Assembly: GCA_014190235.1 (NCBI GenBank)
Contig: BJGC01000006.1
Location: forward strand, 45,707-92,885
Origin: Actinomycetes bacterium
GTDB taxonomy: Bacteria > Actinomycetota > Acidimicrobiia > Acidimicrobiales > Ilumatobacteraceae
Direction: 5' to 3'
DNA length: 47,179 nt
The notes under the pieces are model-generated. The model saw only the letters and a program-made list of their open reading frames with translations. It made no database searches and was not told where the DNA came from. Position 1 is the stretch's first letter; each line of letters begins with the position of its first letter. The translations under genes were made by a program, and so were the position numbers. Below, in pieces: positions 2,539 to 46,516 of the stretch.

Positions 2539-3282
2539 CTAATCCTTTGGCACTCTAAAATCAATACTGCAAGTATCAAAGGCTTTTTGGAACTGTCCCT
2601 GATATTGTTCTAGCGTTCCAGACGCGGCAGTGACATCTTCAATCCCTTGGAGTGCAATCCCCAAGCAATTGATCTGCACTTCTGTGGCAGTCAATCCAAA
2701 AAGTGTCGCCACTAACACACCTGTTGCCCGAGCGTCGGACGCGTTGTCGGTCAGTCCCATCGGCGGATCAGTGGCTGTTGGGCTCGGCTGTATCGGCAAC
2801 GGCAAAGTCGAAGCGTCATTTGCGACCGCGATTGATGACTTGGTGCCGCAAAGCGATTGCGTGTAGTCACCGACAATTACAGTTGCATCAGCAATTTTCT
2901 TTTCTCCAAATTCTGCTATTGCCGCCTGCACCTCGACGTTTGTGGCAACTGCCGCGATATCCCAATCCACTTCGTCGAGTGCAACGCTGAGAGCAGTCAA
3001 GGCAGTTCTTACTTGCTCAACTCGTGCAATGACATCACTCGGCGGGGATTTAGACAGTAACGCAAGCACGTACAACGATCGCTCGAGATCATTATGCAGA
3101 TCTGACGAAGTCATCCCCCCGACCATGTCGGATTCGGAACTCAATCTATTTAGAACTCGCGAGATATCAATCGTGGACCTACACACGGGTAACGATTCCG
3201 CTGACGAGCAACTGATCAATACCGTCAGGGTTGCGCAAACCAATAACAATTTACGTGTGGCACAAAACATCGAAGTGAACAT
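2539..3282 (-). CDS. Hypothetical lipoprotein
   Basis: With the start at ATG 3280-3282 the protein has 247 residues and opens with a lipoprotein signal: a basic residue, a hydrophobic run and the lipobox LISC, after which the cysteine would be lipidated. The frame is open upstream to 3405, but those longer starts would run into the divergent DoxX gene, and GGGGA lies just before ATG 3282, so the shorter form is preferred; ATG 3268-3270 is an alternative. The mature part is mainly helical, with a spacer rich in Pro, Thr and Ala around 165-190. No family is recognised. It is probably anchored to the outer face of the membrane. Confidence 0.68.
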   Translation of the reverse strand: MFTSMFCATRKLLLVCATLTVLISCSSAESLPVCRSTIDISRVLNRLSSESDMVGGMTSSDLHNDLERSLYVLALLSKSPPSDVIARVEQVRTALTALSVALDEVDWDIAAVATNVEVQAAIAEFGEKKIADATVIVGDYTQSLCGTKSSIAVANDASTLPLPIQPSPTATDPPMGLTDNASDARATGVLVATLFGLTATEVQINCLGIALQGIEDVTAASGTLEQYQGQFQKAFDTCSIDFRVPKD

Positions 3283-3384
3283 ACGTCCCCATTCTGCCCT
3301 GACGGAGGCCATCGATGGTGTTTTGTCACAACACACGCTTTTTTGCGCCCAATGCTGAGCAAGGCATTCAACTGTCGAACTGAC

Positions 3385-3390
3385 TAGAGT
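3385..3390 (+). promoter_or_regulatory. -10 hexamer TAGAGT, leaderless promoter of the doxX gene
   Basis: TAGAGT is followed by GCCCTT and then ATG at 3397. The six-base spacing fits a transcript starting on the A of ATG. No ribosome binding site is visible. Confidence 0.6.
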
Positions 3391-3396
3391 GCCCTT

Positions 3397-3912
3397 ATGG
3401 ACCACATTGACCTTGGATTATTAATTATGCGTCTTGCTTTTGGATTATCACTGGCATATCACGGACTGAATAAAGTCATCGGCGCTGGCGGCCTCACTGG
3501 CACAAGTGGTTGGTTTGGCAGTTTAGGAATGAAGTCACCCATGCTTCAGGCAAGACTTGCTGCCAGCACAGAAATTCTAAGTGGTCTATTTTTTGCTTGT
3601 GGACTGTTGACACCATTTGCTGCGGGTGCAATGGTGGCATTGATGATTGTCGCAATTGTCACCGTTCATGCCCGTGTCGGTTATTTCATTTTTTTACCCA
3701 ATGGGGGTTGGGAATATTGTGCGGCCATCGCCTTTGTGGCGGCCGGCATCGCATCCACAGGCCCTGGCTCAGCATCACTCGACAACGCCCTCGAGTTCGA
3801 CTTTAATGGTGGTGGCCTCGCGATCGCGTTAGGACTTGGACTGGTAGGCGCCGCTCTTCAATTGGCTCTGTTTTACCGACCTCAGGCGGTTGGAAAGAAC
3901 AACGCCGCGTGA
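3397..3912 (+). CDS. DoxX family membrane protein
   Basis: This 171-residue protein has four hydrophobic segments and the DoxX hallmarks: an N-terminal RLAFGLSLAYHGLNK helix, then a GW-rich loop, and AASTEILSGLFFACGLLTP in helix 2. DoxX/DoxD-type proteins sit in the cytoplasmic membrane and have been linked to quinone-dependent oxidation and to redox homeostasis, but the role of this type is not settled. The next gene starts within its stop codon (GTGA), so the two are probably co-translated. Confidence 0.85.
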   Translation: MDHIDLGLLIMRLAFGLSLAYHGLNKVIGAGGLTGTSGWFGSLGMKSPMLQARLAASTEILSGLFFACGLLTPFAAGAMVALMIVAIVTVHARVGYFIFLPNGGWEYCAAIAFVAAGIASTGPGSASLDNALEFDFNGGGLAIALGLGLVGAALQLALFYRPQAVGKNNAA

Positions 3913-4427
3913 CCAAGAAACGACTTGGGCAATTGTTTCTCGGCGTTGTCTGTATCGCAATCGCTTTGATGTGGGTGTACGCGTTTATATATGCACCGCG
4001 AGAGTCTGCGAATAAAATCAATGACTCATCGTGGGGTCAGCGCGCAAACATTGTGTGTGAGGCTGCGCGATCCAAGCGCACCGCTCTACAAGATCTGCGC
4101 AAGATCAGCATCACAGACCCAAAGGCAATGATAATTCGCGCAGATATTGCTGAAAAAGCAACAGCAACACTCACTGAGATGCTTGACGAAATTGAGAAGT
4201 CACCACCCACAGACGCCAAGGGACGCGAACTCGTGCCACTTTGGATCGCTGACTATCGCGTGTATATCTCGGATCGTTTAAAATATGTCTCAGAACTGCG
4301 CACCGGACAAACTAAGCGATTGAACGAGACAATTGTCGAGGGAGTACCTATCAGTGAGAAAATCTCAAAATTCGCTCGAGAGAACAGAATGAAATCGTGT
4401 CAAGCCCCCTACGACCTCGTGTCGTAG
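3909..4427 (+). CDS. Hypothetical single-pass membrane-anchored protein
   Basis: The protein has 172 residues and starts at GTG 3909, overlapping the DoxX stop by four bases. Residues about 7-28 form one transmembrane helix after a basic MTKKR start, leaving a mostly helical, charged domain outside the membrane. That domain contains a coiled-coil-like stretch around 65-100, and two cysteines (one near residue 50, one near the C-terminus) could pair. No family is recognised. The tight coupling with DoxX suggests a shared role, which is inference. Confidence 0.7.
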   Translation: MTKKRLGQLFLGVVCIAIALMWVYAFIYAPRESANKINDSSWGQRANIVCEAARSKRTALQDLRKISITDPKAMIIRADIAEKATATLTEMLDEIEKSPPTDAKGRELVPLWIADYRVYISDRLKYVSELRTGQTKRLNETIVEGVPISEKISKFARENRMKSCQAPYDLVS

Positions 4428-4463
4428 TCAGATTACTTATTCAAAATAAATGGAGTTCGTGTT

Positions 4464-5078
4464 TTACAGAGTTTTCCAGACGCCATCTGTGAACTGACGG
4501 ATAACGCGTGCTGGTGTCCCCACTGCAACGCAATAATCTGGCAGGTCATGTGTTACGACCGAGTTTGCTCCAACAACAACATGGCGACCAATTGTGACGC
4601 CCGGCAGCACGATGCATCCATGCCCCAACCACGATCCGTCACCGATACGAACTGCACGCTCGGGTTGAGTCTGTTGTGAAATTGGCCGTGAGATATCCTC
4701 ATATCCATGATTTTGATCTGTGATGTAGACATGGTGTCCAGTCCAAACATCATCACCAATCTCAATACTAAAATGTCCAACGATTCCGCTACCGCGGCCG
4801 ATCAAGCAGCGATCTCCAATACGCACTACTGGTGACGTCACGCATAACTGTCCAGGGATCATTCCTGCCGACAGGGCGACGTGTTGACCAATCATGGTGT
4901 GTGACCCAATTGATATATATTGCTCGTTGAAGATCGTGGTCGGCGGCCACATAATGATGCTTCGATCACCAAAGGATTCGAATTTTTTTCCGCGCTTTGT
5001 GCTCGGGCCGATGGCCGCCCAACGCTGTAAAGCTTCCTGAGAATTGGCATACGCCACGCCAATAAGAGCCTTGATCAC
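4464..5078 (-). CDS. Hexapeptide-repeat acyltransferase (left-handed beta-helix, WbbJ/LacA-like)
   Basis: The 204-residue protein shows hexapeptide repeats across most of its length, such as IGSHTM-IGQHVA, IGDRCL-IGRGSG and IGDGSW-LGHGCI, ending in the common VVGANSVVTHDLPDYCVAVGTPARVI close. These enzymes are trimeric O- or N-acetyltransferases acting on sugars or antibiotics. The active-site histidine is probably the one in DQNHGYEDI. The acceptor is unknown. The start is GTG 5076-5078, supported by a TAGCGT hexamer 6 bases upstream. No polysaccharide genes are nearby. Confidence 0.85.
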   Translation of the reverse strand: MIKALIGVAYANSQEALQRWAAIGPSTKRGKKFESFGDRSIIMWPPTTIFNEQYISIGSHTMIGQHVALSAGMIPGQLCVTSPVVRIGDRCLIGRGSGIVGHFSIEIGDDVWTGHHVYITDQNHGYEDISRPISQQTQPERAVRIGDGSWLGHGCIVLPGVTIGRHVVVGANSVVTHDLPDYCVAVGTPARVIRQFTDGVWKTL

Positions 5079-5084
5079 ACAACC

Positions 5085-5090
5085 ACGCTA
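5085..5090 (-). promoter_or_regulatory. -10 hexamer TAGCGT, leaderless promoter of the acyltransferase
   Basis: On the minus strand TAGCGT is followed by GGTTGT and the GTG start codon. The six-base gap matches the other leaderless promoters of the window. Confidence 0.55.
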
Positions 5091-5254
5091 CAAACAAGAC
5101 GTCCGAACTGCCACTCCAGTCGTTCTGACGCGCCCTTTACTGCCCTCTCGTGACGTGAGCGACTTTGCGTAGTGACACGGTCAATGGCGCCTTAGCATGA
5201 TGATGCCTGTCGGGCAACGCAAGACCACCACTGACCCATTTTGTCGGAGATTTC

Positions 5255-6082
5255 ATGACCATTGCACCTTCATCACGAGCAAAGTTCACAGTTCCGATGC
5301 TTGCTGCTCGTAAAGCCACGCAAAGCAAGATCGCAATGATCACAGCATACGATGCGACGTTTACGTGCATCGTTGACGCTGCAGGTGTTGACATTATTTT
5401 GGTTGGCGACTCGGTGGCCACCGTGTTTCAAGGCGAACGCACCACTCTTCCGGTCACACTGTGGGAGATGGAGTACCACACTCGCCTTGTTGCCAAGACA
5501 CGTCCCAGAGCAATGATCGTAGGCGATCTGCCATTTGGTTCATATCAGGTGTCACCTGAACTCGCCGTGACTCACAGTGTCGCACTCATCAAAGCCGGAG
5601 CAGAGTGCGTCAAACTCGAAGGTGGCATTCACATGGCATCCGCAATCCAAGCCATCACTCGCGCTGACATTCCGGTGATGGGACACATTGGTCTCACGCC
5701 ACAGAGTTACCATCGCATGGGTGGCAATAAAGTTCAAGGGCGCACAGAAGGTATCGACCCTGGCGGTCGCGACAGACTGATTGAAGATGCTTACGCAGTC
5801 GAGCAGGCTGGAGCGTGTGCGCTTGTTATTGAAGGAGTCCCCGCAAACCTTGCTCGAGAGATAACAAACAAGGTGTCGATTCCGACGATCGGCATTGGTG
5901 CTGGCATCGACTGCGATGGCCAGGTACTTGTATTACATGATGCACTCGGTCTGAGCGAGAGAACATTTTCCTTCGCAAAGGCGTATGCCCAGTTGCGCTC
6001 AACCAGCATTGATGCCATCACAAAGTACGTAGACGAAGTCCGCACGGGTGTTTGGCCTGACGACTCTCATACATTTCACTAA
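5255..6082 (+). CDS. panB: 3-methyl-2-oxobutanoate hydroxymethyltransferase (PanB)
   Basis: PanB transfers a hydroxymethyl group from 5,10-methylene-tetrahydrofolate to 2-oxoisovalerate, giving ketopantoate, the first committed step to pantothenate and coenzyme A. The 275-residue length is normal. Recognised blocks are ITAYDATF, ILVGDSVATVFQG (about 48-60, with the metal-binding Asp of GDS), KLEGG, GHIGLTPQS and IGIGAGIDCDGQVLVLHDALGL. ATG 5255 is preceded by GGAGA at 5246-5250. panC follows after 15 bases. The 176 bases upstream, back to the divergent acyltransferase gene, contain no other gene. Confidence 0.97.
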   Translation: MTIAPSSRAKFTVPMLAARKATQSKIAMITAYDATFTCIVDAAGVDIILVGDSVATVFQGERTTLPVTLWEMEYHTRLVAKTRPRAMIVGDLPFGSYQVSPELAVTHSVALIKAGAECVKLEGGIHMASAIQAITRADIPVMGHIGLTPQSYHRMGGNKVQGRTEGIDPGGRDRLIEDAYAVEQAGACALVIEGVPANLAREITNKVSIPTIGIGAGIDCDGQVLVLHDALGLSERTFSFAKAYAQLRSTSIDAITKYVDEVRTGVWPDDSHTFH

Positions 6083-10565: not shown

Positions 10566-11294
10566 TCAGAACACGGCGCCGGCGATTGCGCTTATCCCGC
10601 TCATTGCTAATAACACGAGTACCAGTACCCGAAACCCGTCGGCATTTACACGTGGTCGCAAGACGAGTCCAACTTTGAGCGCTAACACAAGTGTCGGGAG
10701 GGCAATAACGCTGGCGCGTAGAGCATCGCCCGTCACTTTTCCGGCGAGACAAAACAAAACGAATGAACCGATCCCAACAAAGGCAAACACACGATTGATC
10801 GTCGCACGAAAACGATCCGGTTCAATCTTGCGTGCATGCAAGAGAAACGCCAACGGTGGTCCATTAGTTGATAGCGATGTCGCCAACACTCCCGAGACAA
10901 TTCCAATAATCCATTCATGGCGTGCGGATTCATGCTTCAATGTAAAACCTTTTCCCAACAAAATCGTCACGGCCAATATGACGACTCCTAATACAGCACG
11001 CAATACATCTTGACTCAGATCTACAAATGCCACGAGCCCAAACGGCATCCCGCATGCAGATGCAAGGATGAGTCGTTTAGCCATCACCGTGTCGGTGTCT
11101 GCACGATCACGAACTGCTTGATACGACGTCGAAACTATGCCAAGCACCGTTGACACAACGATGGCAATATGAGGTTCTATAAACAACGTCATCAGAGGCA
11201 CGGATAAGAGCGCAAAGCCAAACCCTGAAATGGACTGAACTCCAGCCGCAAGAGCGACCACGACGGCAATACCAAATAGCTCAAACCCACTCAT
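10566..11294 (-). CDS. TauE/SafE family (sulfite exporter-like) membrane permease
   Basis: From ATG 11292-11294 the protein has 242 residues with about eight hydrophobic helices and the family hallmark GVQSISGFGFALLSVPL near the N-terminus, with its second copy LATSLSTNGPPLAFLL. Characterised TauE/SafE proteins move sulfite, sulfoacetate or organic anions across the cytoplasmic membrane. The frame is open upstream to 11432, but the added 46 residues are hydrophilic and would cover the divergent operon's start. No ribosome binding site is convincing. It diverges from the heterocycle operon, so it may serve that operon, which is inference. Confidence 0.8.
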   Translation of the reverse strand: MSGFELFGIAVVVALAAGVQSISGFGFALLSVPLMTLFIEPHIAIVVSTVLGIVSTSYQAVRDRADTDTVMAKRLILASACGMPFGLVAFVDLSQDVLRAVLGVVILAVTILLGKGFTLKHESARHEWIIGIVSGVLATSLSTNGPPLAFLLHARKIEPDRFRATINRVFAFVGIGSFVLFCLAGKVTGDALRASVIALPTLVLALKVGLVLRPRVNADGFRVLVLVLLAMSGISAIAGAVF

Positions 11295-11414
11295 CGCGAC
11301 GCCGCTGTCTTCCCCACAGTGCGAGGCTAGATGGATGGATTGTTCCTTCTCGGGATAAACAGAGATAAAACTGCCCAAATGCCTGATATGTCTGCCTTTG
11401 ACTTGAACATTTCG

Positions 11415-11420
11415 TACACT
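11415..11420 (+). promoter_or_regulatory. -10 hexamer TACACT, leaderless promoter of the six-gene catabolic operon
   Basis: TACACT is followed by TACAGG and GTG at 11427, which fixes the start of the first gene. No acceptable -35 at 16-18 bases was found, so an activator may be needed; that is inference. Confidence 0.55.
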
Positions 11421-11426
11421 TACAGG

Positions 11427-12716
11427 GTGCAACCCGTTCCCTCGCCTGTCGCTTTGTCGGTCAATAAGACACTCACCATCAATGCCGATCGACTGATGAA
11501 CCGTCTTGCAGATTTGGCCGATGTCTCTCCGATCGATGGGGGCGGCAATTGCAGACTCGCTCTCACAGCACAGGACAAGTTGGGTCGAGATCTCGTGATG
11601 AACTGGATGGTAGAACTCGGGCTAAGCATCACGGTTGACACGATTGGCAATGTCACTGGTACATGGGACACAGGGTCAGGAGCACCTGTGATGACAGGCT
11701 CGCACATTGACACTGTTCGCACAGGTGGTCGATTTGATGGCAACTACGGCGTACTCGCAGGGCTTGAAGTAATTGAGACATGCCAAACAGCAGATCTCGC
11801 GTTACCACGCCCACTTGCCGTTACTTTTTTCACCAATGAAGAAGGCGCTCGCTTCGCACCTGACATGCTCGGATCTTTGGTATACGCGGGCGCAATGCAA
11901 GTAGAAGAGGCTCTCGACATTGTGGCAATTGATGGCGCACGACTTGGTGATGAACTTCGAACAATCGGGTACGACGGTTCGACGCCATGTCCTGGCGTGG
12001 TACCGCACGCGTTTGTTGAGCTACATATTGAGCAAGGACCAATTCTCGAGGCTGAAGGATTTGTGATTGGTGCTGTCACAGGAGTGCAAGGCATTAGTTG
12101 GCAAGAAGTCGTGATCGAAGGACAAAGTAACCACGCCGGAACAACTCCAATGTCGCTGCGTCATGATGCTGCGTACATTGCGGCCCGGCTCACAGTTTTT
12201 CTTCGAGAACTAGCCCTGCGATATGGACAACATCAAGTCTGCACAGTCGGCAAAATTGATCTATTTCCGAACCTCGTCAATGTTGTGGCCGCGCGTGCCA
12301 CGCTCACGCTCGATGTTCGCAACACAGACAACAAGGTGCTGCAAAAAGCCGAGCAAGAAATCGCCGACTTTATAAAGGTCCTTGCATTGCAAGAGGAAGT
12401 GACTATCAGCACCCGTCAGCTCGTTCGCTTTGATCCAGTCATATTTGACCACAGAATTATCTCACTTGTTGAGTCAATTGCTCTCGACTCAAAACTGTCG
12501 GTAAAGACAATGCCTTCGGGTGCAGGGCATGACGCGCAAATGTTGGCCCGCGTTTGCCCATCCGGCATGATCTTTGTGCCAAGCGTTAAGGGCATCAGCC
12601 ACAACGCTGCAGAGTTCACGCATACTGCCGATCTTGTGGCGGGGGCAAATGTCTTGCTCCAATCGATGATCGCTCTCGCACATCACGACTTCTATTCGCA
12701 AGTGACTGCATCATGA
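11427..12716 (+). CDS. M20 amidohydrolase: allantoate amidohydrolase / N-carbamoyl-L-amino acid hydrolase family
   Basis: This 429-residue zinc hydrolase of the hydantoinase/carbamoylase subfamily shows GSHIDTV (H93), GRFDGNYG (D104), FTNEEGARF (E138/E139), ELHIEQG (H200) and GAGHDAQML near the C-terminus, which supply both metals and the general base. Family members split N-carbamoyl or ureido groups from amino acids, allantoate or beta-ureidopropionate, releasing ammonia and CO2. The start is placed at GTG 11427 because of the leaderless promoter; an upstream in-frame ATG at 11331 would add 32 atypical residues. It overlaps the next gene by ATGA. It is the first gene of a six-gene operon. 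Confidence 0.88.
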   Translation: MQPVPSPVALSVNKTLTINADRLMNRLADLADVSPIDGGGNCRLALTAQDKLGRDLVMNWMVELGLSITVDTIGNVTGTWDTGSGAPVMTGSHIDTVRTGGRFDGNYGVLAGLEVIETCQTADLALPRPLAVTFFTNEEGARFAPDMLGSLVYAGAMQVEEALDIVAIDGARLGDELRTIGYDGSTPCPGVVPHAFVELHIEQGPILEAEGFVIGAVTGVQGISWQEVVIEGQSNHAGTTPMSLRHDAAYIAARLTVFLRELALRYGQHQVCTVGKIDLFPNLVNVVAARATLTLDVRNTDNKVLQKAEQEIADFIKVLALQEEVTISTRQLVRFDPVIFDHRIISLVESIALDSKLSVKTMPSGAGHDAQMLARVCPSGMIFVPSVKGISHNAAEFTHTADLVAGANVLLQSMIALAHHDFYSQVTAS

Positions 12717-13636
12717 GTCGGGTCATCGTTGTAGGAGCTGCCCAACTAGGCCCCATTCAGCGAGCGCATACGCGTCAAGATGTTTTAAAACGCCTTATGA
12801 CTCTCATGGCAGAGGCGGCCTCTCGTTCGTGTGACGTTGTCGTGTTTCCTGAACTCGCTCTCACAACTTTTTTCCCACGTTGGTTCGAACCAGACATCAC
12901 TACAGCCAACCATTTTTATGAAACTCAAATGCCGTCTTCAGTGACGCAACCACTATTTGATGAGGCACGCAGATTGAATATCGCGTTTTGTCTCGGATAC
13001 GCAGAACTCACATCCGATGGACATCGATACAACACCCAGGTCCTCGTGGGCAAAGACGCCAAGATCATTGCTCACTACAGAAAAATCCATGTTCCTGGAC
13101 ACGAACACCATGAACCAGATCGCCCGTTTCAACATGCGGAGCGCTACTACTTCGAACCATCACAAGATGGATTCGGAGTATGGAACGCTCTAGGCGGACG
13201 AATTGGCATGATGATCTGCAACGATCGTCGTTGGCCCGAGACATACCGAGTGATGGGACTCAAAGGTGTAGAGATGATCCTGTGCGGCTACAACACGCCT
13301 CTGCATTATGCCCCGGACCCCACACAAGATCGGCTGCAGAGCTTTCATAACTCTCTTGTCATGCAGTCGGGCGCATATCAAAACGGAACATGGGTCGTTG
13401 GTGTTGCAAAAGGTGGTTGTGAAGAGGGCGTCGACAGCCTTGGTGACAGCGCGATCATCGCACCATCTGGTGAGATCATGGCGCAAGCACAGACCACTGA
13501 TGACGAGTTATTGACATATGCATGTGATTTAGATTGGTGCAACAATTACAAGAACACACTCTTTGACTTTGATCGCTATCGACGCCCTGATATGTACTCA
13601 ACCATCACTGCTCAACGCGGCGTCGTACTGGACTAG
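12713..13636 (+). CDS. N-carbamoyl-D-amino acid hydrolase-like nitrilase
   Basis: This 307-residue member of the carbon-nitrogen hydrolase superfamily has a full Glu-Lys-Cys triad: FPELALTTFFPRW (E47), YRKIHVPGH (K124) and MMICNDRRWPE (C169). The motifs and spacing follow the Agrobacterium D-carbamoylase closely, including the FPRW segment, the RPFQH segment and a GYNTP block. These enzymes hydrolyse N-carbamoyl-D-amino acids to the amino acid, CO2 and ammonia. The ATGA overlap with the M20 gene shows coupling, so the operon encodes two unrelated enzymes with potentially the same bond chemistry. Confidence 0.88.
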   Translation: MSRVIVVGAAQLGPIQRAHTRQDVLKRLMTLMAEAASRSCDVVVFPELALTTFFPRWFEPDITTANHFYETQMPSSVTQPLFDEARRLNIAFCLGYAELTSDGHRYNTQVLVGKDAKIIAHYRKIHVPGHEHHEPDRPFQHAERYYFEPSQDGFGVWNALGGRIGMMICNDRRWPETYRVMGLKGVEMILCGYNTPLHYAPDPTQDRLQSFHNSLVMQSGAYQNGTWVVGVAKGGCEEGVDSLGDSAIIAPSGEIMAQAQTTDDELLTYACDLDWCNNYKNTLFDFDRYRRPDMYSTITAQRGVVLD

Positions 13637-13641
13637 TTGAT

Positions 13642-14703
13642 ATGACCACTCAAACACACGGCCTCGTGTGCGCCCATCATCATCTGTATTCTTCACTTGC
13701 TCGCGGAATGCCCGCTAGCGGCCCTGCTGCAGACTTTCTAGCAATCTTGAAAACAATTTGGTGGAGACTTGATGTCGCCCTCGACCTTGACATCATCTAC
13801 TGGTCAGCGGCGCTTGGTGCGGCTGAGGCTGTCATGTCCGGCACAACCGCCATCATCGATCACCATGAGTCGCCAACAGCCATTGAAGGCAGCCTTGATG
13901 CAATCGCTGCTGGATGCGCCCTCGTTGGCGTACGGACCAATCTTTGTTACGGCGTCACCGACAGATGGAGCAATAGTCAATCAATGATGTCTGCCGGAAC
14001 AACGCCGCAATCAATGACAGATGGTGCTCGCCGCGGCTTGCAAGAGTGCGACCGTTATTTATCCACTGGCGCTAGAGGAATGGTGGGTGTGCATGCTGCA
14101 TTCACCTGTAGCGATGAGACGCTCGAAGCTGCTGCAGATCTTGCATTGCGACACCACACAGGAGTACATATTCATGTCGCAGAAGGCGACTCCGATGCCA
14201 ACGCCTCGATGCGTCTCCAATCACTTGCTTCAGAGTCATGGTTGTTGGCACATTGCGTCTATTTAGACCAAGACATGCCAGGCACAATTGTGCACAACGC
14301 TAGGTCCAACATGAACAATGCAGTCGGCTATGCGTATCCAGCCAAGAAAAACAACCGCATCGTACTCGGCACAGATGGCATCGGTGCTGACATGCAAGAA
14401 GAGGCTCGTCTGGCATATGCACGATTACGAGAGTCCGATATCAGCCAAACTCCAGACACAGTGTGGCAATGGCTGCAAAATGCAGAACAGATATTTCCCG
14501 AAGTATGTCGCGACACGGTGACATGGAACTATGGCAGTATTGATTCTGCGTGGCACTCTGCATTTACGACAACAAGTGCTGTTACAGATGTCGCTATCGG
14601 AGGCGTGCCTGTTGTCGTCGATTCGCAACTTGTGACCTGTGATCTAAACGAGATCCACGCTAAGGCTGCAGAAGCGACTCACCGTCTGTTTGGTCGGCTC
14701 TAA
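13642..14703 (+). CDS. SsnA-like amidohydrolase lacking the N-terminal beta domain
   Basis: The 353-residue amidohydrolase keeps its metal site: HHH at 12-14 (HxH), VHIHVAEG (His and Glu), LLAHCVY (His) and LGTDGIG (Asp). The best likeness is to SsnA / 8-oxoguanine-deaminase-type cyclic amidine hydrolases, which usually have about 440 residues. This one begins right at the GLVCAHHH strand, so the usual N-terminal beta-sandwich half (about 60 residues) is missing and the C-terminal half looks shortened. The upstream gene leaves no room for it. Its ring-opening or deaminating substrate is unknown; the neighbours suggest a nitrogen heterocycle. Confidence 0.78.
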   Translation: MTTQTHGLVCAHHHLYSSLARGMPASGPAADFLAILKTIWWRLDVALDLDIIYWSAALGAAEAVMSGTTAIIDHHESPTAIEGSLDAIAAGCALVGVRTNLCYGVTDRWSNSQSMMSAGTTPQSMTDGARRGLQECDRYLSTGARGMVGVHAAFTCSDETLEAAADLALRHHTGVHIHVAEGDSDANASMRLQSLASESWLLAHCVYLDQDMPGTIVHNARSNMNNAVGYAYPAKKNNRIVLGTDGIGADMQEEARLAYARLRESDISQTPDTVWQWLQNAEQIFPEVCRDTVTWNYGSIDSAWHSAFTTTSAVTDVAIGGVPVVVDSQLVTCDLNEIHAKAAEATHRLFGRL

Positions 14704-14711
14704 AGGAACCT

Positions 14712-15563
14712 ATGTCTATTCATATACCTACTTCTCTTGACGATGCAGTGGCCTTACTGCACGAACTCCCCCGCGTCCAATTACTTGCTGGCGGAACAGA
14801 TTTTATGGTCGAAGTTAATTTTAATAGACACGACGTTCACGATGTCGTTGCGCTGAGGCGTGTCACTGAACTTCAACAATGGCAGCACGATGAAACAAGC
14901 AACACCGTCACAATTGGTGCTGGTGTGCCATACGCAGAAATGGAAAACGGTGAACTGGCGAGACTGTTCCCTGCTCTCGCGGAGGCGGCGCGCACAGTTG
15001 GTTCTCCTCAGATTCGCGCCGCCGGCACACTTGGGGGCAATCTGGGCACTTGCTCGCCAGCGGGCGACGGGCTACCGGTGTTGTTTGCACTCGACGCCGT
15101 CGTTAATCTCGCTTCACATCGTGGCAAGAGATCGTTACCTATAGGTGAGTTTATGTTGGGCCCAAAACGCAGCGCCCTTGCCGTAGACGAACTAGTTGTC
15201 TCAGTATCAATGAAAACGACCACTGGTTGGCAAGGGTATGCAAAAGTCGGCACACGAAATGCAATGGTTATCTCGGTCGCATCTGCGTCTTTAGTGCTGG
15301 ACTCTGAGAGCGGTACTGCTCGAATAGCGCTCGGTTCAGTGGGCCCAACAATCATTCGCTGCACTCAAGCCGAACAATGGTTGCAGACTCAGTACGACAT
15401 TTCTGCTCGAAAAGAACTCGATGAAGCCATTGCTACAGAATTTGGTCTTCGTGTAAGCCAAGAATCTCGACCAATCGACGATCATCGCTCGACGGCTCAG
15501 TATCGCCGTCATGCAGTTGGCGTTTTGGCGAAAAGACTTCTACAAAGAGGATGCGTACAATGA
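14712..15563 (+). CDS. Molybdenum hydroxylase FAD-binding subunit (XdhB/CoxM family)
   Basis: This 283-residue FAD subunit passes electrons from the iron-sulfur subunit to NAD or another acceptor. It has the flavin-binding LLAGGTDFM (about 24-32), an AAGTLGGNLGTCSPAGDGLPVL block near 100-120 and a C-terminal CO_deh_flav_C-type domain ending in QYRRHAVGVLAKRLL. AAAGGAACCT precedes ATG 14712 and is a good ribosome binding site. It lies 8 bases after the amidohydrolase gene and shares an ATGA overlap with the iron-sulfur subunit gene. Confidence 0.93.
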   Translation: MSIHIPTSLDDAVALLHELPRVQLLAGGTDFMVEVNFNRHDVHDVVALRRVTELQQWQHDETSNTVTIGAGVPYAEMENGELARLFPALAEAARTVGSPQIRAAGTLGGNLGTCSPAGDGLPVLFALDAVVNLASHRGKRSLPIGEFMLGPKRSALAVDELVVSVSMKTTTGWQGYAKVGTRNAMVISVASASLVLDSESGTARIALGSVGPTIIRCTQAEQWLQTQYDISARKELDEAIATEFGLRVSQESRPIDDHRSTAQYRRHAVGVLAKRLLQRGCVQ

Positions 15564-16039
15564 GTGAAACTCAAATTTATTCACTGCGAGTAAACGGCAA
15601 ACTTCGTGATGTTACTGATGCGTGGCTCGGCGAAAGTTTGCTCTATGTGCTCAGAGAGCGCCTCGGACTCCCAGGCTCCAAGGGAGCGTGCGAGCAAGGT
15701 GAGTGTGGTAGTTGTACGGTCGTGATGGATGGTGTGGCGGTCTGTAGTTGTTTGGTGCTAGCTGCTAGTGCTGTTGGTGCCGACATCACAACGATTGAGG
15801 GTTTCACTGACGGAGCCCTCACGGACGTTCAACAGGCCTTCATTGATGAAGGTGCCGTGCAATGTGGTTTTTGCACACCCGGGCTCATTGTTGCGGTGCA
15901 TCACTTACTCGACAACACGCCAAGACCGTCAGAGATGAAAATCAAAGAAGCACTCTCGGGAAACATTTGTCGTTGTACAGGCTATGGTCGAATATTTGCC
16001 GCAGTCACACGCGTTATCGAACAAAGAGCACAGCAGTGA
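15560..16039 (+). CDS. Molybdenum hydroxylase 2Fe-2S subunit (XdhC/CoxS family)
   Basis: The 159-residue protein carries two [2Fe-2S] clusters. The ferredoxin-type cluster uses CEQGECGSC plus the later VCSC cysteine; the helical-domain cluster uses CGFC and CRCTGYG. Start ATG 15560 is chosen because AGAGG lies 10 bases upstream and because the ATGA overlaps the FAD-subunit stop; an ATG at 15551 would leave no gap after AGAGG. The length is typical for the small subunit. Confidence 0.95.
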   Translation: MSETQIYSLRVNGKLRDVTDAWLGESLLYVLRERLGLPGSKGACEQGECGSCTVVMDGVAVCSCLVLAASAVGADITTIEGFTDGALTDVQQAFIDEGAVQCGFCTPGLIVAVHHLLDNTPRPSEMKIKEALSGNICRCTGYGRIFAAVTRVIEQRAQQ

Positions 16040-18303
16040 GCCCCTCAATAGTTCGTACGCGCCGCGACACACTTGGCACATCGGCACTGCGCCCTGATGG
16101 CGGTGCAAAAGTTCAAGGATCATTTGCATTTTCGTCTGACGTGTGGGCCGACAACATGCTGTGGGGTGCAACTCTTCGATCGCCACATCCCTACGCACGA
16201 ATCATTTCTATTGATACATCTGAAGCGATCAAAATTGCCGGGGTGGAGACCGTTCTCACCGCAGAGGATGTACCGGGCCAACTGACCTATGGTCTCATAG
16301 AGTCTGATCAACCGGTCTTTGCTGCAGGAGTTGTGCGATACATGGGAGAGCCTGTTGCGGCAGTTGCTGCTGACCACCCCGAAACGTGCCGCCGTGCCCT
16401 AGCGGCAATACGGGTTGAGTATGAGGTATTGGAGCCGCACGTTAATCCCGAAGATTCAATCTCTGGGTCCGTGCCACCGATTCACCCAAACGGAAACCTC
16501 CTGAGACATCAACGCATCGTCTGTGGTGACACCACCGTCACTGGTCCAGTGGTGGTTGAATGCGAATACGAAATCGGCATGCAGGACCAAGCTTTTCTCG
16601 GACTCGAAGCCGCCCTCGCAATTCCCGATGCCGATGGTGGCGGGGTCGAAATGATTGTCGCCACACAGTGGCTGCACGAAGACCGAAAACAAATCGCACT
16701 GTGCTTGGGACTTCCGGAAGAAAAAATTCGCTTGACTCTCGGTGGCGTTGGAGGAGCATTCGGTGCCCGCGAAGATATCAGTTTACAAGTTCATGCAAGT
16801 CTGCTCGCTCTTCGCACCGGTCGGCCAATCAAGATGCAATACAGCCGTGAAGAGAGTTTCTTTGGTCATGTTCATCGTCATCCTGCCAAAATATGGGTAC
16901 GTCATCATGCCCGCAACGACGGCATGATTCTCAAAATTGAAGCCCGCATGGTCTTTGACGGTGGTGCATACGCATCTACCTCTGCTGCTGTCCTTATTAA
17001 TGCCGTCACACACATCCAAGGACCATACAGATGTGCCAATGCAGTCGTTGATGGCTTTGCTGCCCGAACAAATAATCCACCGTGTGGAGCAATGCGTGGA
17101 TTCGGTGTGGTGCAGGCGTGTTTTGCTCACGAAAGTCAAATGGACAAATTGGCACAGGCATGCGGCCTCTCCCCTGTCGAAATACGCCTTCGTAACGCAA
17201 TGAGAACTGGTGACCGCCTGATTACCGGACAACCAGTTGAAAGTGTCGCTCCCGTAGAGCGTTGTATCCGCGAGACAGATGCAATTGCGTTACCACCCCA
17301 AATGACGAGTTCTCCTCACGAACTGTTGCTGCCAGGTGGTTCTGGTCGCACTGCAGATCGCCAGCACATTACTCGTGGCATCGGATGGGGTGTCTCAATT
17401 AAAAACTTGATGTATAGCGAAACATTTGATGACTATGCAACGGCACGTTGTCGACTAGAAAACGGAATCGTGACACTAAAGTTTGCAACGTCTGAAGTTG
17501 GTCAAGGCTTCATTACTCTTGCTCCCCAGATCGCACGTTCTGTACTTGGTATTGACACGGTCATTGTCGATCCAATGGACACAACAATTGGTTCTGCTGG
17601 GTCAACGTCTGCATCACGCCAAACATGGATGAGTGGCGGAGCGGTTGATGGCGCGTGTCGTCTTGTGCGTGAGCGGTTATTCGAACATGTGGCACGGCAG
17701 CAAAACCTTGACCCGTTGCAACTCGAGATCGACGACACAGACATTATTGATACGCGAGGAACGTTACGAATTTCTGTATCCCAGGCAAGTGCTGGGATGA
17801 CCTTTGAAGAAACCTTTGAACATCATCATCGCCCCACAGAAGACTTAGACGAGAACGGCCAAGGCAACTGCCATGTTGCCTTTGCTTTTGTTGCCCACAG
17901 AGCGGTCGTTGATGTCGACACCGAACTTGGCCTTGTCAAAGTTGTACAGATCGCGACCGCCCAAGATGTTGGTCGCGCACTGAATCCACTCTCTGTCCTT
18001 GGCCAGATAGAAGGTGGCATAGCGCAAGGCCTTGGGCTCGCGGTGATGGAAGAAATCCTGATGGTCAACGGCATCGTCAAGAATCCAAGTTTTACGGATT
18101 ATCTCTTACCAACTGCTCTTGATGCGCCCGATGTCGTAGCGGTCCTCATTGAAGAACCAGATCCACAGGCTCCTCTTGGCGCTAAGGGCGTTGGCGAACC
18201 GCCGTGCATCTCTGTCACACCCGCCATTGCTGCAGCCATTCGCGATGCAACAGGTCGCGCCATCACGCGCGTTCCAGTTCGACCCAGCGACATCTGTCTG
18301 TGA
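16036..18303 (+). CDS. Molybdenum hydroxylase large subunit (xanthine dehydrogenase-type, MoCo-binding)
   Basis: The catalytic subunit has 755 residues from GTG 16036, which overlaps the previous stop (GTGA). Key blocks are GGVGGAFGARED, CGAMRGFGVVQ (the family's RGFG), GQGFITLAPQ and, near the C-terminus, GAKGVGEPP, whose Glu is the catalytic base of the family. The active-site loop is of the GAMRGFG kind and lacks the AYXCSFR motif of form I CO dehydrogenase, so hydroxylation of an aromatic or purine-like heterocycle is favoured. It closes the operon begun at 11427. Maturation proteins such as XdhC-type chaperones are not present here. Confidence 0.93.
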   Translation: MSPSIVRTRRDTLGTSALRPDGGAKVQGSFAFSSDVWADNMLWGATLRSPHPYARIISIDTSEAIKIAGVETVLTAEDVPGQLTYGLIESDQPVFAAGVVRYMGEPVAAVAADHPETCRRALAAIRVEYEVLEPHVNPEDSISGSVPPIHPNGNLLRHQRIVCGDTTVTGPVVVECEYEIGMQDQAFLGLEAALAIPDADGGGVEMIVATQWLHEDRKQIALCLGLPEEKIRLTLGGVGGAFGAREDISLQVHASLLALRTGRPIKMQYSREESFFGHVHRHPAKIWVRHHARNDGMILKIEARMVFDGGAYASTSAAVLINAVTHIQGPYRCANAVVDGFAARTNNPPCGAMRGFGVVQACFAHESQMDKLAQACGLSPVEIRLRNAMRTGDRLITGQPVESVAPVERCIRETDAIALPPQMTSSPHELLLPGGSGRTADRQHITRGIGWGVSIKNLMYSETFDDYATARCRLENGIVTLKFATSEVGQGFITLAPQIARSVLGIDTVIVDPMDTTIGSAGSTSASRQTWMSGGAVDGACRLVRERLFEHVARQQNLDPLQLEIDDTDIIDTRGTLRISVSQASAGMTFEETFEHHHRPTEDLDENGQGNCHVAFAFVAHRAVVDVDTELGLVKVVQIATAQDVGRALNPLSVLGQIEGGIAQGLGLAVMEEILMVNGIVKNPSFTDYLLPTALDAPDVVAVLIEEPDPQAPLGAKGVGEPPCISVTPAIAAAIRDATGRAITRVPVRPSDICL

Positions 18304-18331
18304 GTCTTTGCTCCCGGTCGCGCACTCTCAT

Positions 18332-18337
18332 TATGGT
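18332..18337 (+). promoter_or_regulatory. -10 hexamer TATGGT, leaderless promoter of the cupredoxin gene
   Basis: TATGGT is followed by AATGCG and the ATG at 18344. It lies in the 40-base gap after the molybdenum hydroxylase operon and suggests the lipoprotein genes form a separate unit. Confidence 0.55.
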
Positions 18338-18343
18338 AATGCG

Positions 18344-18727
18344 ATGATTAATCGAATTTACATAGTGTGTGCATTCGCTTTTTGCGCCGTCACGCTCGCT
18401 GCTTGCTCTTCATCGCCAGATCAAATTCTGCGTGGAGCGAGCCTCCCGGGCGTTGCCGTCGCATCAGTAGATAACTCATTTGAGCCCCAAACAGTGTCAG
18501 TGGTGGTCGGCCAATCTGTTATCTGGACAAATACGGGTCGCAATCGCCACGATATCAAGATCAAAAAAGCGCAGTCTGACTTTGGGATAGATCAAGATTC
18601 CTTTACCCCACTCACTGGCACGTACACGTACGCGTTCAGCAAGCCCGGCTCATTCGTCTATTATTGTTCTATCCACGGCACGGCCAAGGGAAAGGGAATG
18701 GCTGGAACAGTTGTGGTGTCAAAATAA
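18344..18727 (+). CDS. Cupredoxin-domain lipoprotein (plastocyanin-like)
   Basis: This 127-residue protein has a lipoprotein signal ending in LAAC (C21) and then a cupredoxin fold. All type 1 copper ligands are visible: H69 in NRHDI, C108 and H111 in YYCSIHG, and M119 in GKGMAG. It should bind copper and carry electrons on the outer face of the membrane. The start at ATG 18344 is fixed by the signal peptide and the TATGGT hexamer. It is followed after 34 bases by the beta-helix lipoprotein. Confidence 0.9.
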   Translation: MINRIYIVCAFAFCAVTLAACSSSPDQILRGASLPGVAVASVDNSFEPQTVSVVVGQSVIWTNTGRNRHDIKIKKAQSDFGIDQDSFTPLTGTYTYAFSKPGSFVYYCSIHGTAKGKGMAGTVVVSK

Positions 18728-18761
18728 CAACTATGCGCAACCAATATCTCCGGGGGGAAAT

Positions 18762-19994
18762 ATGAAAACACTACGACTTCTCATCTCGACTGCCGCACTA
18801 ATGGCAGTTCTTGCTTCGTGTGGGGGGTCTTCATCCTCTAACGCAAACGTCAAAAGAGTTCCCCAAGACTTTAAGACGATCCAAGAAGCAGTTGATGCAG
18901 CAGTTGCTGGCGACCTGGTGTTGATAGACAAGGGTACCTATTCGGAGGCCGTCACGGTCGAGACCGACAACATAGTGATTCGTGGCATAGACCGAAACGA
19001 AGTCATCCTCGAAGGCGATTACACCCTTGACAACGGTATTCGCATCGTCGGAGCCAAGGGCGTCGTCGTTGAAAACATGACAGCGCGCAATTACCGAGCA
19101 AATGGCTTCTTTTGGACGGGGGTTGACGGATACCGCGGGTCATATTTAACTGCAGTTCGAAATGGCGACTACGGCATTTATGCGTTTGACTCTGTGAACG
19201 GAATCTTTGAGCATAGTTATGGCGGTGGAAGCCCCGACGCTGGTTTTTATATTGGCCAATGCAAACCATGTAATGCGATCATCAACGATGTCATTGCTGA
19301 GAACAATGGTCTTGGATACTCAGGCACCAACGCATCTGGAAACCTTGTGATTGCAAATTCAACGTTTCGACAGAACCGGGCCGGAATAGTTCCCAACTCA
19401 CTTGATAGCGAAAAACTAAGCCCCCAGGAGGACAACATCATTGTTGGAAACTTGGTTTATTCAAATAACAACGGGCTCACGCCAGCAATTGGGGCTGCCA
19501 AACTTGCAATGGGTAATGGCATTCTTGTAGCGGGCGGAAACAGAAACCAAATCCTTCGTAACCGAGTCTGGGATCACGACATCACCGGAATCGGCATTGT
19601 TCCGAACTCCGACAAGAGTCTCTTTTGGGTAGAAGGTAACTCAGTTCAAGAAAACGACGTCAGCGACAGCAGAGCGGCAGATCTTGCGCTGACGGCTCTT
19701 GATGCCAAGGCAAATAATTGTTTTTCAAAGAATGTCTTTGCCACAAGTAAGCCAGCCGACATTGAGAATGCTCAGCCTTGCTCCGGTACCGCAACAGCAC
19801 CATTTGACAAAGATCCCTTACCACTCGCCGACTTGATTAATCGCGTTAAGCCAGATTCTGGCGACATCAAGAAGATGCCCGATCCAGGTCCTCAGACCAA
19901 CATGCCAAACGCTGCAAAAGCCAAGGCAGTTCCTATGATCGCTCCTCCAACGCCTCTTGATGTTGCGTTGGTCACGCTGCCCGCTAAACCGTGA
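18762..19994 (+). CDS. Right-handed parallel beta-helix lipoprotein (NosD/pectate-lyase-like fold)
   Basis: The 410-residue protein starts at ATG 18762 after GGGGGGAAAT. A signal with lipobox LASC is followed by the entry FKTIQEAVDAAVAGDLVLI common to beta-helix proteins and then repeated short strands (NIVIRGI, GVVVENM, GIFEHSY, NLVIANSTFRQN, NQILRNRVW). Isolated cysteines include a CKPC pair near residue 170. The C-terminal 70 residues are rich in Pro, Ala and Lys. Such folds bind or cut polysaccharides or, as in NosD, act in metal-site assembly. No catalytic residues are identifiable. It overlaps the DUF1996 gene by GTGA. Confidence 0.84.
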   Translation: MKTLRLLISTAALMAVLASCGGSSSSNANVKRVPQDFKTIQEAVDAAVAGDLVLIDKGTYSEAVTVETDNIVIRGIDRNEVILEGDYTLDNGIRIVGAKGVVVENMTARNYRANGFFWTGVDGYRGSYLTAVRNGDYGIYAFDSVNGIFEHSYGGGSPDAGFYIGQCKPCNAIINDVIAENNGLGYSGTNASGNLVIANSTFRQNRAGIVPNSLDSEKLSPQEDNIIVGNLVYSNNNGLTPAIGAAKLAMGNGILVAGGNRNQILRNRVWDHDITGIGIVPNSDKSLFWVEGNSVQENDVSDSRAADLALTALDAKANNCFSKNVFATSKPADIENAQPCSGTATAPFDKDPLPLADLINRVKPDSGDIKKMPDPGPQTNMPNAAKAKAVPMIAPPTPLDVALVTLPAKP

Positions 19995-20875
19995 GATGTC
20001 GTGCACTGCTGTGCTGTGCTGTTGCTGCAGCGCTCACAGCGTGTAGTACAGGCGCTTCTTCTCAACTCTCTCTTACACCAAAGACAAGTGTGCACGCACA
20101 CCCGATGTCACTTGGAGTGTCAGAGTCCGTTGTTGACCCTGATTCAGGGCGCCGTGGCAGTTTTGGCGTCGTGTGTCCCTTTAGTCATCGCAATGAAGAC
20201 GATCCGATTGTGTTTCCCGATGAATCGGGGGTGTCACATCAGCACGATTATTTTGGAGCAACAAGTGTCAGTGCTTCAACACGCTGGAAATCTCTTTTGA
20301 CAATGCCAAATCTTTGCAAATCCATGGGCGATCTTTCGGCGTATTGGGCGCCGACATTACAAGCCAATCTCGCAGATGTCGATCCGACAGAGATGGCTGT
20401 GTATCTGCGCACACCCACCGAGGCGGATCCGTCAGACATCGTCACACCGCCGAACGGACTTCAACTGATGTCAGTGCGTTCAGGGTGGACATGCGCCCGC
20501 ACTGATGAGCCAACCGCGCAGATGCAGTATTGCCCGCCTCCGTCAACGACTCGACTGATTCTTGAGTACCCAGACTGTTGGGACGGCGAGAATTTGTCTT
20601 CTGCCGATCACTATTCCCATGTTGCGGTCTCAGTGCATGGCAAGTGCCCCACAACGCATCCAAACATGATTCCGCAAATGGCAACAGAGATACGTTACGA
20701 ACTCAAAGGCTTTTCTAAAGATACGACGTACGCACTCTCATCTGGAGCATTAGACACAGCTCACGCCGATGCAATTTTGGCTTGGGACCAAAAAGTTCTT
20801 GCGAAAGAAATTCGCTCGTGCATTAAACGACGTGTGAACTGCGACCTCACGTGGTTCACGGCTATTCAGGGTTAA
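19991..20875 (+). CDS. DUF1996 domain lipoprotein
   Basis: This 294-residue protein starts at GTG 19991 within the previous stop codon. A signal sequence ends in LTAC (C18), so it is a likely lipoprotein. The mature part has DUF1996 features: a conserved CPFSHRNEDDPIVFPD stretch, HQHDYFG, SAYWAPTL, and the late YPDCWDGEN and HYSHVAVSVHGKCP segments. The family is secreted in bacteria and fungi and has no firmly established function; the conserved histidines suggest metal or sugar binding. It ends 7 bases before the convergent lactone-oxidase gene. Confidence 0.85.
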   Translation: MRCRALLCCAVAAALTACSTGASSQLSLTPKTSVHAHPMSLGVSESVVDPDSGRRGSFGVVCPFSHRNEDDPIVFPDESGVSHQHDYFGATSVSASTRWKSLLTMPNLCKSMGDLSAYWAPTLQANLADVDPTEMAVYLRTPTEADPSDIVTPPNGLQLMSVRSGWTCARTDEPTAQMQYCPPPSTTRLILEYPDCWDGENLSSADHYSHVAVSVHGKCPTTHPNMIPQMATEIRYELKGFSKDTTYALSSGALDTAHADAILAWDQKVLAKEIRSCIKRRVNCDLTWFTAIQG

Positions 20876-46304: not shown

Positions 46305-46516
46305 GGGGGCAATCCTTTCGCTAATGGTTGAGTCTCCATCGCAAGGCCACCAGAAGTTTTATGCACTTTCGTGCATCACATCCCCTGGCGGGAAGCACCG
46401 TGGCCTGGTTGGCTCGGTTGCTGTACTCTGCTGAGTCACTCTTGATGTTGGACTCAACTTACAAACTAGGTGTTGCACAGTTGCGAGTTTGCGTCGCAGA
46501 TCCTGCTCGACATTCT
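46305..46516. other. Intergenic stretch, 212 bases
   Basis: No gene is supported here. It contains the perfect palindrome ATGCAC-TTTC-GTGCAT at 46361-46376 and the ribosome binding site of the 45-residue gene at its left end. A plus-strand open frame that crosses it also crosses the CDITH gene in antisense and is considered spurious. Confidence 0.5.

Follow-up and report, generated by a model that had tools for sequence, protein, structure and literature searches.

The six consecutive plus-strand genes at positions 11427-18303 of a 47,179-nucleotide stretch of an Ilumatobacteraceae genome (class Acidimicrobiia; assembly GCA_014190235.1, contig BJGC01000006.1; the whole stretch is hereafter called the window) probably encode part of a reductive uric acid pathway, namely its entry step together with most of its hydrolytic enzymes; the genes for the reductive half lie in other parts of this genome. 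The operon combines an M20 hydrolase, a CN-hydrolase of the N-carbamoyl-D-amino-acid amidohydrolase type (D-carbamoylase), a short SsnA-like amidohydrolase and a three-subunit xanthine dehydrogenase. An initial annotation had suggested that it may be an undescribed route, of purely oxidative logic. Neither point is supported: a fused molybdenum (Mo) enzyme and a reductase of the coenzyme F420 type flank the SsnA-like gene in most relatives examined, and the system resembles, and probably works like, the reductive pathway described in 2025 (PMC12507026, PMC12990295). In the genome studied here, these two additional genes lie outside the window, on another contig. We further regard it as fairly probable that the breakdown of uric acid by reduction, far from being confined to gut anaerobes, is ancient and common among Actinomycetota that live freely and breathe air. 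In these, F420H2 would take over from the iron-sulfur reductase, a D-carbamoylase and a different M20 enzyme from YgeW and YgeY, and a pair of fold-type-II pyridoxal phosphate (PLP) enzymes from diaminopropionate lyase; planktonic Acidimicrobiia would rely on this route instead of uricase to obtain urate nitrogen.

The reductive pathway was published for Escherichia coli and clostridia, and the two reports (PMC12507026, PMC12990295) describe how, in E. coli, XdhD converts urate to yanthine, YgfK dearomatises the product and SsnA opens the ring to give ureidomethyl-hydantoin, after which HyuA, YgeW, YgeY and YgeX lead on to pyruvate. PMC12507026 also notes a putative F420-dependent reductase adjoining SsnA in Chloroflexota, and the occurrence of SsnA in Actinomycetota. 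The published versions disagree on the ureido group removed by YgeW (PMC12990295): according to Li et al., the M20 enzyme YgeY acts on the 3-ureido group, whereas in the other 2025 study, as recounted in PMC12990295, YgeW takes the 3-ureido group first. Among the literature titles listed, none dealt with this pathway in Acidimicrobiia or Ilumatobacter.

Gene neighbourhoods were compared in 132 loci (39 genome stretches, 80 named loci and 13 short loci), of which one had no SsnA hit at the threshold (L123) and 11 were duplicates, leaving 120 distinct loci. The counts refer to the 70 of these with at least 4 kb before and at least 2.5 kb after the SsnA-like gene, the remaining 50 having been left out for their short flanks. 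The named loci are the best 80 of 557 confirmed ones, lean towards close relatives and take their taxonomy from record titles, and the neighbour clusters c10, c11 and c14, probably antisense shadow frames in G+C-rich contigs, were ignored. The fused 2Fe-2S/Mo enzyme was nearby in 57 of the 70 loci and directly upstream of the SsnA-like gene in 53, and the F420-type luciferase-family reductase was nearby in 54 and directly downstream in 48. D-carbamoylase, M20 and PucD-type genes were nearby in 55, 45 and 40 loci, respectively. These co-occurrence counts argue that the grouping is not due to chance. The six-gene unit of the initial annotation is present in the window, and its gene order is kept in relatives. 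The conserved unit in relatives exceeds six genes; the arrangement of the window (M20, D-carbamoylase, SsnA and PucD-type genes with neither of these two) was found in 6 of the 70 loci, its own stretch included.

A YgfK-like protein was nearby in seven of the 70 loci, occupying the slot of the F420-type reductase directly downstream of the SsnA-like gene in six of them, and none of the 70 loci held both proteins. Short proteins of this kind (cluster c15) occur in L061, L063, L066, L067, L069, L070 and L071. The copy in L067 (positions 10787-12574, 596 amino acids) is 38% identical to E. coli YgfK over residues 2-405 and also aligns to residues 898-978, not to the middle, and scores 425 bits with TIGR03315 (under the cut-off of 835). 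By record title, named carriers of the SsnA-like gene include metagenome-assembled genomes from lakes, deep Lake Baikal and marine waters, as well as MedAcidi-G2B (L181) and AG-410-G14 (L155). The titles of L133, L136, L140, L156 and L200 (Ferrithrix, Bifidobacterium breve, Acidimicrobium ferrooxidans) are unlikely and possibly automatic mislabels, and the operons of these loci resemble those in records titled Ilumatobacteraceae.

Further evidence comes from the interchange of enzymes between lineages, followed in 130 loci, of which 110 were in-class or named loci and the other 20 were stretches surrounding SsnA-like genes in Actinomycetota that do not belong to the class. Nine duplicates and L111-L123 (1.5-kb flanks) were left out, and flanks differed, making the counts lower bounds. 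Outside the class, the fused enzyme was found in 14 of the 20 stretches, the F420-type reductase in 12, a hydantoinase in 8 and the larger PLP enzyme in 3, together with relatives of E. coli YgeW (11 stretches, 33-40% identity), YgeY (6, 45-50%) and YgeX (3, 34-36%), and none of the 20 carried a D-carbamoylase or M20 enzyme of the operon's kind. Within the 110 in-class or named loci, the D-carbamoylase occurred in 73 and the M20 enzyme, of another subfamily than YgeY, in 58; 82 had the fused enzyme and 83 the reductase. YgeX was found in one of the 110 (our genome was not searched for YgeX as such), YgeY in none at locus level, and a YgeW relative in none, likewise at locus level, with our own genome searched only within its 20-kb stretch (L033) and UacY not searched for. 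Each of the four pairings of D-carbamoylase or M20 with YgeW or YgeY was absent from all 130 loci. The chief reason to think that the two carbamoylases may stand in for YgeW and YgeY lies in this pattern of exchange: since the fused enzyme and the reductase occur outside the class with relatives of YgeW, YgeY and YgeX, the two carbamoylases probably remove the ureido groups. The absence of YgeW and YgeY at locus level makes the system a variant rather than a strict member of the E. coli-type pathway.

The two carbamoylases are of unrelated families. The CN-hydrolase product matches the CN_hydrolase family, and all 11 PDB sequences found at E≤1e-20 are N-carbamoyl-D-amino-acid hydrolases, enzymes known from hydantoin bioconversion; the best match (370 bits) covers residues 1-304 of 307 and has an ICNDRRW stretch in common with the CN-hydrolase. 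The M20 protein, of the beta-ureidopropionase/L-carbamoylase/allantoate amidohydrolase superfamily, passes TIGR01879 (386 bits, cut-off 204) and NF006771 (412 bits, cut-off 399), the latter labelled as allantoate amidohydrolase. Among solved structures, it scores highest with an unnamed member of the hydantoinase/carbamoylase family (5thw, 333 bits), followed by an N-carbamoyl-beta-alanine amidohydrolase (8c46, 284), an L-carbamoylase (3n5f, 269) and an allantoate amidohydrolase (1z2l, 210). The suggestion of the initial annotation that the two enzymes act late and probably differ in specificity is supported. They probably strip both ureido groups from 2,3-diureidopropionate, which would give two unrelated carbamoylases one common substrate. 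The alpha ureido group of the intermediates is chiral, with a proposed R configuration (PMC12990295), and the D-carbamoylase family fits this R (D) form; the beta ureido group resembles N-carbamoyl-beta-alanine, a substrate of M20 relatives. Which enzyme takes which group is uncertain, because the published versions disagree on the group removed by YgeW.

The SsnA-like protein is probably a trimmed SsnA-type enzyme and not the product of a broken gene, as judged from its motifs, its position in the tree, a confident structure model and short frames in relatives. It has 353 amino acids, starts just ahead of the HxH metal motif, lacks the first ~55 residues of SsnA, and is 34% identical to E. 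coli SsnA across residues 57-438 of the latter, with the metal-site motifs kept and the blocks WWRLD, DHH, SNMNN-VGY and GTDGIG in common. In the tree, which has an arbitrary root, long branches for E. coli GuaD and SsnA and some frames over-extended at the start, the short proteins cluster together with good support and fall on the side of SsnA, separate from GuaD and the 8-oxoguanine deaminases. A structure model built with 14 sequences is confident (predicted local distance difference test, pLDDT, 89.6; predicted template modelling score, pTM, 0.90) and can be overlaid on full-length amidohydrolases, starting near residue 57 of the latter (best Z 38.7, 339 aligned residues, 2.5 Å), the N-terminal beta-sandwich half being absent. 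A hidden SsnA N-terminus upstream of 13642 was considered and rejected, the preceding 300 bases being full of stops in frame. In several relatives, the entire stop-to-stop frame is only 339-345 amino acids long (339 in G046, G050, G152, G232 and G235), so the short form is not peculiar to the genome of the window; the common start of the 14 short alignment rows is uninformative on this point, as the ranges were cut to the query match. Across the class, the SsnA-like gene was found in 179 of 395 genomes (E≤1e-20), with weak matches in G250 and G329.

The family calls of the initial annotation agree with profile searches, and its reading of the operon as purine-catabolic is supported. The molybdenum cofactor (MoCo) subunit matches MoCoBD_1 and MoCoBD_2 and passes the PucD model TIGR03196 (836 bits, cut-off 783.65). 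The flavin adenine dinucleotide (FAD) subunit matches FAD_binding_5 and CO_deh_flav_C above cut-off and XdhB below it (NF043083, 180 bits, cut-off 310), and the 2Fe-2S subunit matches Fer2_2 (102 bits) and, both under cut-off, XdhC (NF043084, 166 bits) and PucE (158 bits).

The remaining genes were located outside the window. In each of the four genomes of the genus examined, our own included, the genes for the fused enzyme and the reductase stand together as a pair apart from the operon. In one of these (G356), operon and pair lie ~95 kb apart on a single 557-kb contig, which shows that assembly did not create the split in that genome. G122 (L039, L091), in which the reductase alone lies outside the operon (contig C93) and the fused Mo enzyme is retained, is an intermediate state of the split. 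At E≤1e-15, the reductase matches six PDB sequences and no others, all of them from Mer-type F420-dependent reductases; its proposed dearomatising role is assigned by family and by position in relatives, our genome's copy lying on C2 and not beside SsnA. CofD was present in 9 of 9 genomes and above cut-off in 8, including our own, and COX1 of cytochrome oxidase in all nine, our own included. The initial annotation had stated that no classical hydantoinase is present, and this fails genome-wide, as a D-hydantoinase (472 bits, cut-off 393) of the HyuA type, 41% identical to E. coli HyuA, lies on contig C8; in some relatives (L155, L188, L199) a hydantoinase stands beside the cluster. Contig C22 encodes two fold-type-II PLP enzymes side by side, with 42% and 58% identity to a linked pair in L060 (positions 2928-5626), and such pairs also occur near the operon in other relatives, e.g. 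L064 and L181. The pair consists of a cysteine-synthase-like protein of ~500 and a threonine-synthase-like protein of ~415 amino acids, the scanned representatives scoring below every curated cut-off, and both are candidate diaminopropionate-degrading enzymes.

As the initial annotation had observed for the window, the enzymes of the oxidative route did not turn up: uricase (TIGR03383) was found in none of 7 genomes, our own included, in a search that covers this family and not FAD-dependent urate hydroxylases and that matched Bacillus subtilis and Haloferax volcanii in a control of 14 genomes, and allantoinase (TIGR03178) exceeded its cut-off in none of 9 genomes, all of which have weaker matches. 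In our genome, the best such match is the D-hydantoinase itself (243.5 bits, cut-off 357.85). Across the class, uricase matches in 15 of 395 genomes (14 above cut-off) as compared with 179 for the SsnA-like gene, with an overlap of one (G086; Fisher p=0.0013, not corrected for relatedness).

Taken together, these genes suggest a route in which the PucD-type xanthine dehydrogenase (14712-18303) would convert xanthine to urate, the fused enzyme would reduce urate to yanthine (2,8-dioxopurine) and the F420-type reductase would dearomatise it. The short SsnA would then open the ring of dihydroyanthine to give ureidomethyl-hydantoin, and the D-hydantoinase would open the hydantoin to 2,3-diureidopropionate. 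From this, the D-carbamoylase may remove the 2-ureido and the M20 enzyme the 3-ureido group, leaving 2,3-diaminopropionate for deamination by the putative PLP pair. What we observe is that the genes are present, which families they belong to, how they are linked in relatives and, in other Actinomycetota, how they are exchanged for relatives of the E. coli enzymes; all substrates, the reaction direction of the fused Mo enzyme, the division of the ureido groups between the two carbamoylases, the F420 cofactor and the last step are inferred. The host lineage is free-living and apparently aerobic, and a cell exposed to oxygen might do well with F420H2 instead of an iron-sulfur flavoenzyme.

Several observations weigh against this proposed route. 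The SsnA-like protein falls under the curated SsnA cut-offs (PRK07203, 240 bits against 444; TIGR03314, 231 against 455.5). The fused enzyme shares no more than 23% identity with E. coli XdhD and might oxidise a purine, the copy in L056 scoring 799 bits with the xanthine dehydrogenase model TIGR03311, just under the cut-off of 830. Because the exchanges run along clades, only a few events underlie them; phylogeny and truncated loci confound the exclusion counts, and the YgeW relatives, at 33-40% identity, are not separated from other carbamoyltransferases. In L222, from outside the class, a short SsnA gene occurs with YgeW-like and YgeX-like genes, so the short SsnA does not necessarily come with a D-carbamoylase. 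The PLP enzymes have no clear BLAST match to YgeX, and their joint absence with YgeX from all 130 loci (p=0.65) proves nothing, leaving the pattern of PLP pair and YgeX suggestive only. The pathway is dispersed over four contigs in our genome, with hydantoinase and PLP pair unclustered with the operon, and a hydantoinase is nearby in just 2 of the 70 loci. Further, 13 of the 70 have no nearby fused enzyme, four of these keeping only SsnA and the F420-type reductase, and G086 carries both uricase and the SsnA-like gene.

Other explanations of the same gene set have to be weighed. The same reductive chemistry could serve mainly another oxopurine, such as a methylated purine or the 8-oxoguanine that arises when nucleic acids are oxidised, with urate at most one entry point; an 8-oxoguanine deaminase-like gene is indeed nearby in 14 of the 70 loci (537 bits in L056, cut-off 532), in some of them with a BMP-type ATP-binding cassette (ABC) importer close by. 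An 8-oxoguanine deaminase would, however, produce urate and so feed the urate route instead of replacing it, and the PucD-type enzyme, of which the window's copy passes the PucD cut-off, is nearby in 40 loci; we therefore consider this unlikely. Less probable still is the scheme of the initial annotation, in which a Mo hydroxylase oxidises an N-heterocycle (a hydantoin, pyrimidine or creatinine derivative), ring opening falls to the amidohydrolase and the last steps to the carbamoylases, the C2 genes being unrelated. It would account for an operon that holds just the PucD-type Mo enzyme, and carbamoylases are classic partners of hydantoinases, but counterparts of the C2 genes stand within the operon in most relatives (53 and 48 of 70), the amidohydrolase groups with SsnA, the MoCo subunit is of the PucD xanthine dehydrogenase type by its cut-off, and outside the class the same set accompanies relatives of E. 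coli uric acid genes.

Two merely clustered modules can also be imagined, namely an incomplete oxidative route of xanthine dehydrogenase and an allantoate-amidohydrolase-like enzyme alongside SsnA and D-carbamoylase acting on another compound. This agrees with the score of the M20 protein for NF006771 and with the occurrence of PucD-type and SsnA genes together in only 40 of the 70 loci. The label of NF006771 is, however, that of a subfamily, beta-ureidopropionase and L-carbamoylase structures outscore allantoate amidohydrolase for this protein, and the searches for uricase (0/7 genomes) and for allantoinase above cut-off (0/9) came back empty, so we give this arrangement very little credence and retain the reductive uric acid pathway as the preferred reading.

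The coordinates of the features are collected in Table 1. Successive genes of the operon are spaced by -4, +5, +8, -13 and -4 bases, and the stop/start overlaps noted in the initial annotation were found at three junctions (ATGA at 12713, GTGA at 16036 and the FAD/2Fe-2S junction, where a second ATG at 15560 likewise yields ATGA). An 813-amino-acid open reading frame for the MoCo subunit starting at 15862 was rejected as over-extended in favour of the GTG at 16036. The divergent permease upstream (PF01925, 91 bits) is kept beside the operon in several relatives of the same family (a cluster of 9 members among the 39 stretches) and is possibly outside the pathway. No riboswitch was found ahead of the operon with Rfam at gathering thresholds, which returned only a tRNA and a distant SAM-I/IV element (window 46345-46453, minus strand; 51.5 bits, gathering score 41.1).

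Table 1. Location of the operon genes, the neighbouring permease and the additional pathway genes. Positions without a prefix refer to the window; C2, C8 and C22 are contigs of the same genome.
Feature	Position	Strand	Remarks
TauE/SafE-family permease	10566-11432	-	Divergent neighbour
M20 hydrolase	11427-12716	+	GTG start; open frame extends upstream to ATG at 11331
CN-hydrolase, N-carbamoyl-D-amino-acid amidohydrolase type	12713-13636	+	
Short SsnA-like amidohydrolase	13642-14703	+	
FAD subunit, three-subunit xanthine dehydrogenase	14712-15563	+	
2Fe-2S subunit of xanthine dehydrogenase	15551-16039	+	Alternative start 15560
PucD-type MoCo subunit	16036-18303	+	GTG start
Fused 2Fe-2S/Mo enzyme	C2:68491-71103		
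F420-type luciferase-family reductase	C2:71129-72130		
D-hydantoinase	C8:55037-56416		472 bits, cut-off 393
Two adjacent fold-type-II PLP enzymes	C22 (L105:12734-15619)		433 and 522 amino acids

Just 3' of the operon (window 18152-20875) follow a cupredoxin-like gene and then genes for a beta-helix/NosD-like protein and a DUF1996 protein, and the operon of L039 is likewise trailed by a similar beta-helix gene. In family relatives (L035:12761-14101 and five other loci), a divergent class-III transaminase (NF005453, 635 bits, cut-off 425) adjoins the operon. The BMP-type importer, at L056:2021-6702 and L067:1-5522, stands near purine genes in several relatives; its NCBIfam name, assigned below cut-off, is for vitamin B6, and it may import purines or nucleosides instead.

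Reductive breakdown of uric acid had been thought to belong to oxygen-avoiding gut bacteria. If our reading is true, the widespread F420-linked version in lake and ocean Actinobacteria, whose SsnA-like marker is carried by 179 of the 395 genomes of the class, would point to an origin in the environment, and it would possibly represent an oxygen-compatible enzyme set for urate breakdown. A D-carbamoylase would gain a function in nature and purine catabolism a step that depends on F420, and uncultured plankton would have a source of nitrogen.

Compared with the E. coli cluster (XdhD-YgfM, YgfK, SsnA, HyuA, YgeW, YgeY and YgeX; PMC12507026), the system has in common an amidohydrolase of probable SsnA type, a fused Mo/2Fe-2S enzyme, a hydantoinase, a slot for a dearomatising reductase beside SsnA, two candidate ureido-removing enzymes and a candidate PLP-dependent last step. 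It differs in that an F420-type reductase stands in place of the NAD(P)H reductase, a D-carbamoylase and a different M20 enzyme replace YgeW and YgeY, and other PLP enzymes replace YgeX. Moreover, SsnA is without its N-terminal half, the cluster is split in this genus, and the genome, with its cytochrome oxidase, is probably that of an aerobe. The clostridial set described for C. difficile and C. sporogenes (XdhD or XdhAC, UacX, SsnA, HyuA, UacY, YgeY and YgeX; PMC12507026 and PMC12990295) resembles the proposal made here in that removal of the 2-ureido group would be hydrolytic and not phosphorolytic, with a D-carbamoylase-family CN-hydrolase as the proposed enzyme here and UacY (PF07969) there; the fused enzyme is near the 'selenium-dependent xanthine dehydrogenase' model, a likeness to the model and not to the clostridial sequences themselves, which were not compared. 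The Chloroflexota case has the same proposed cofactor swap at yanthine reduction, and the evidence there is network co-occurrence, whereas here it is gene-by-gene, from Acidimicrobiia and other Actinomycetota, and includes further enzyme swaps. Finally, the D-carbamoylase is homologous over its full length to N-carbamoyl-D-amino-acid amidohydrolases (PDB 8i99, 1fo6, 1erz), and here its gene is linked to uric acid genes.

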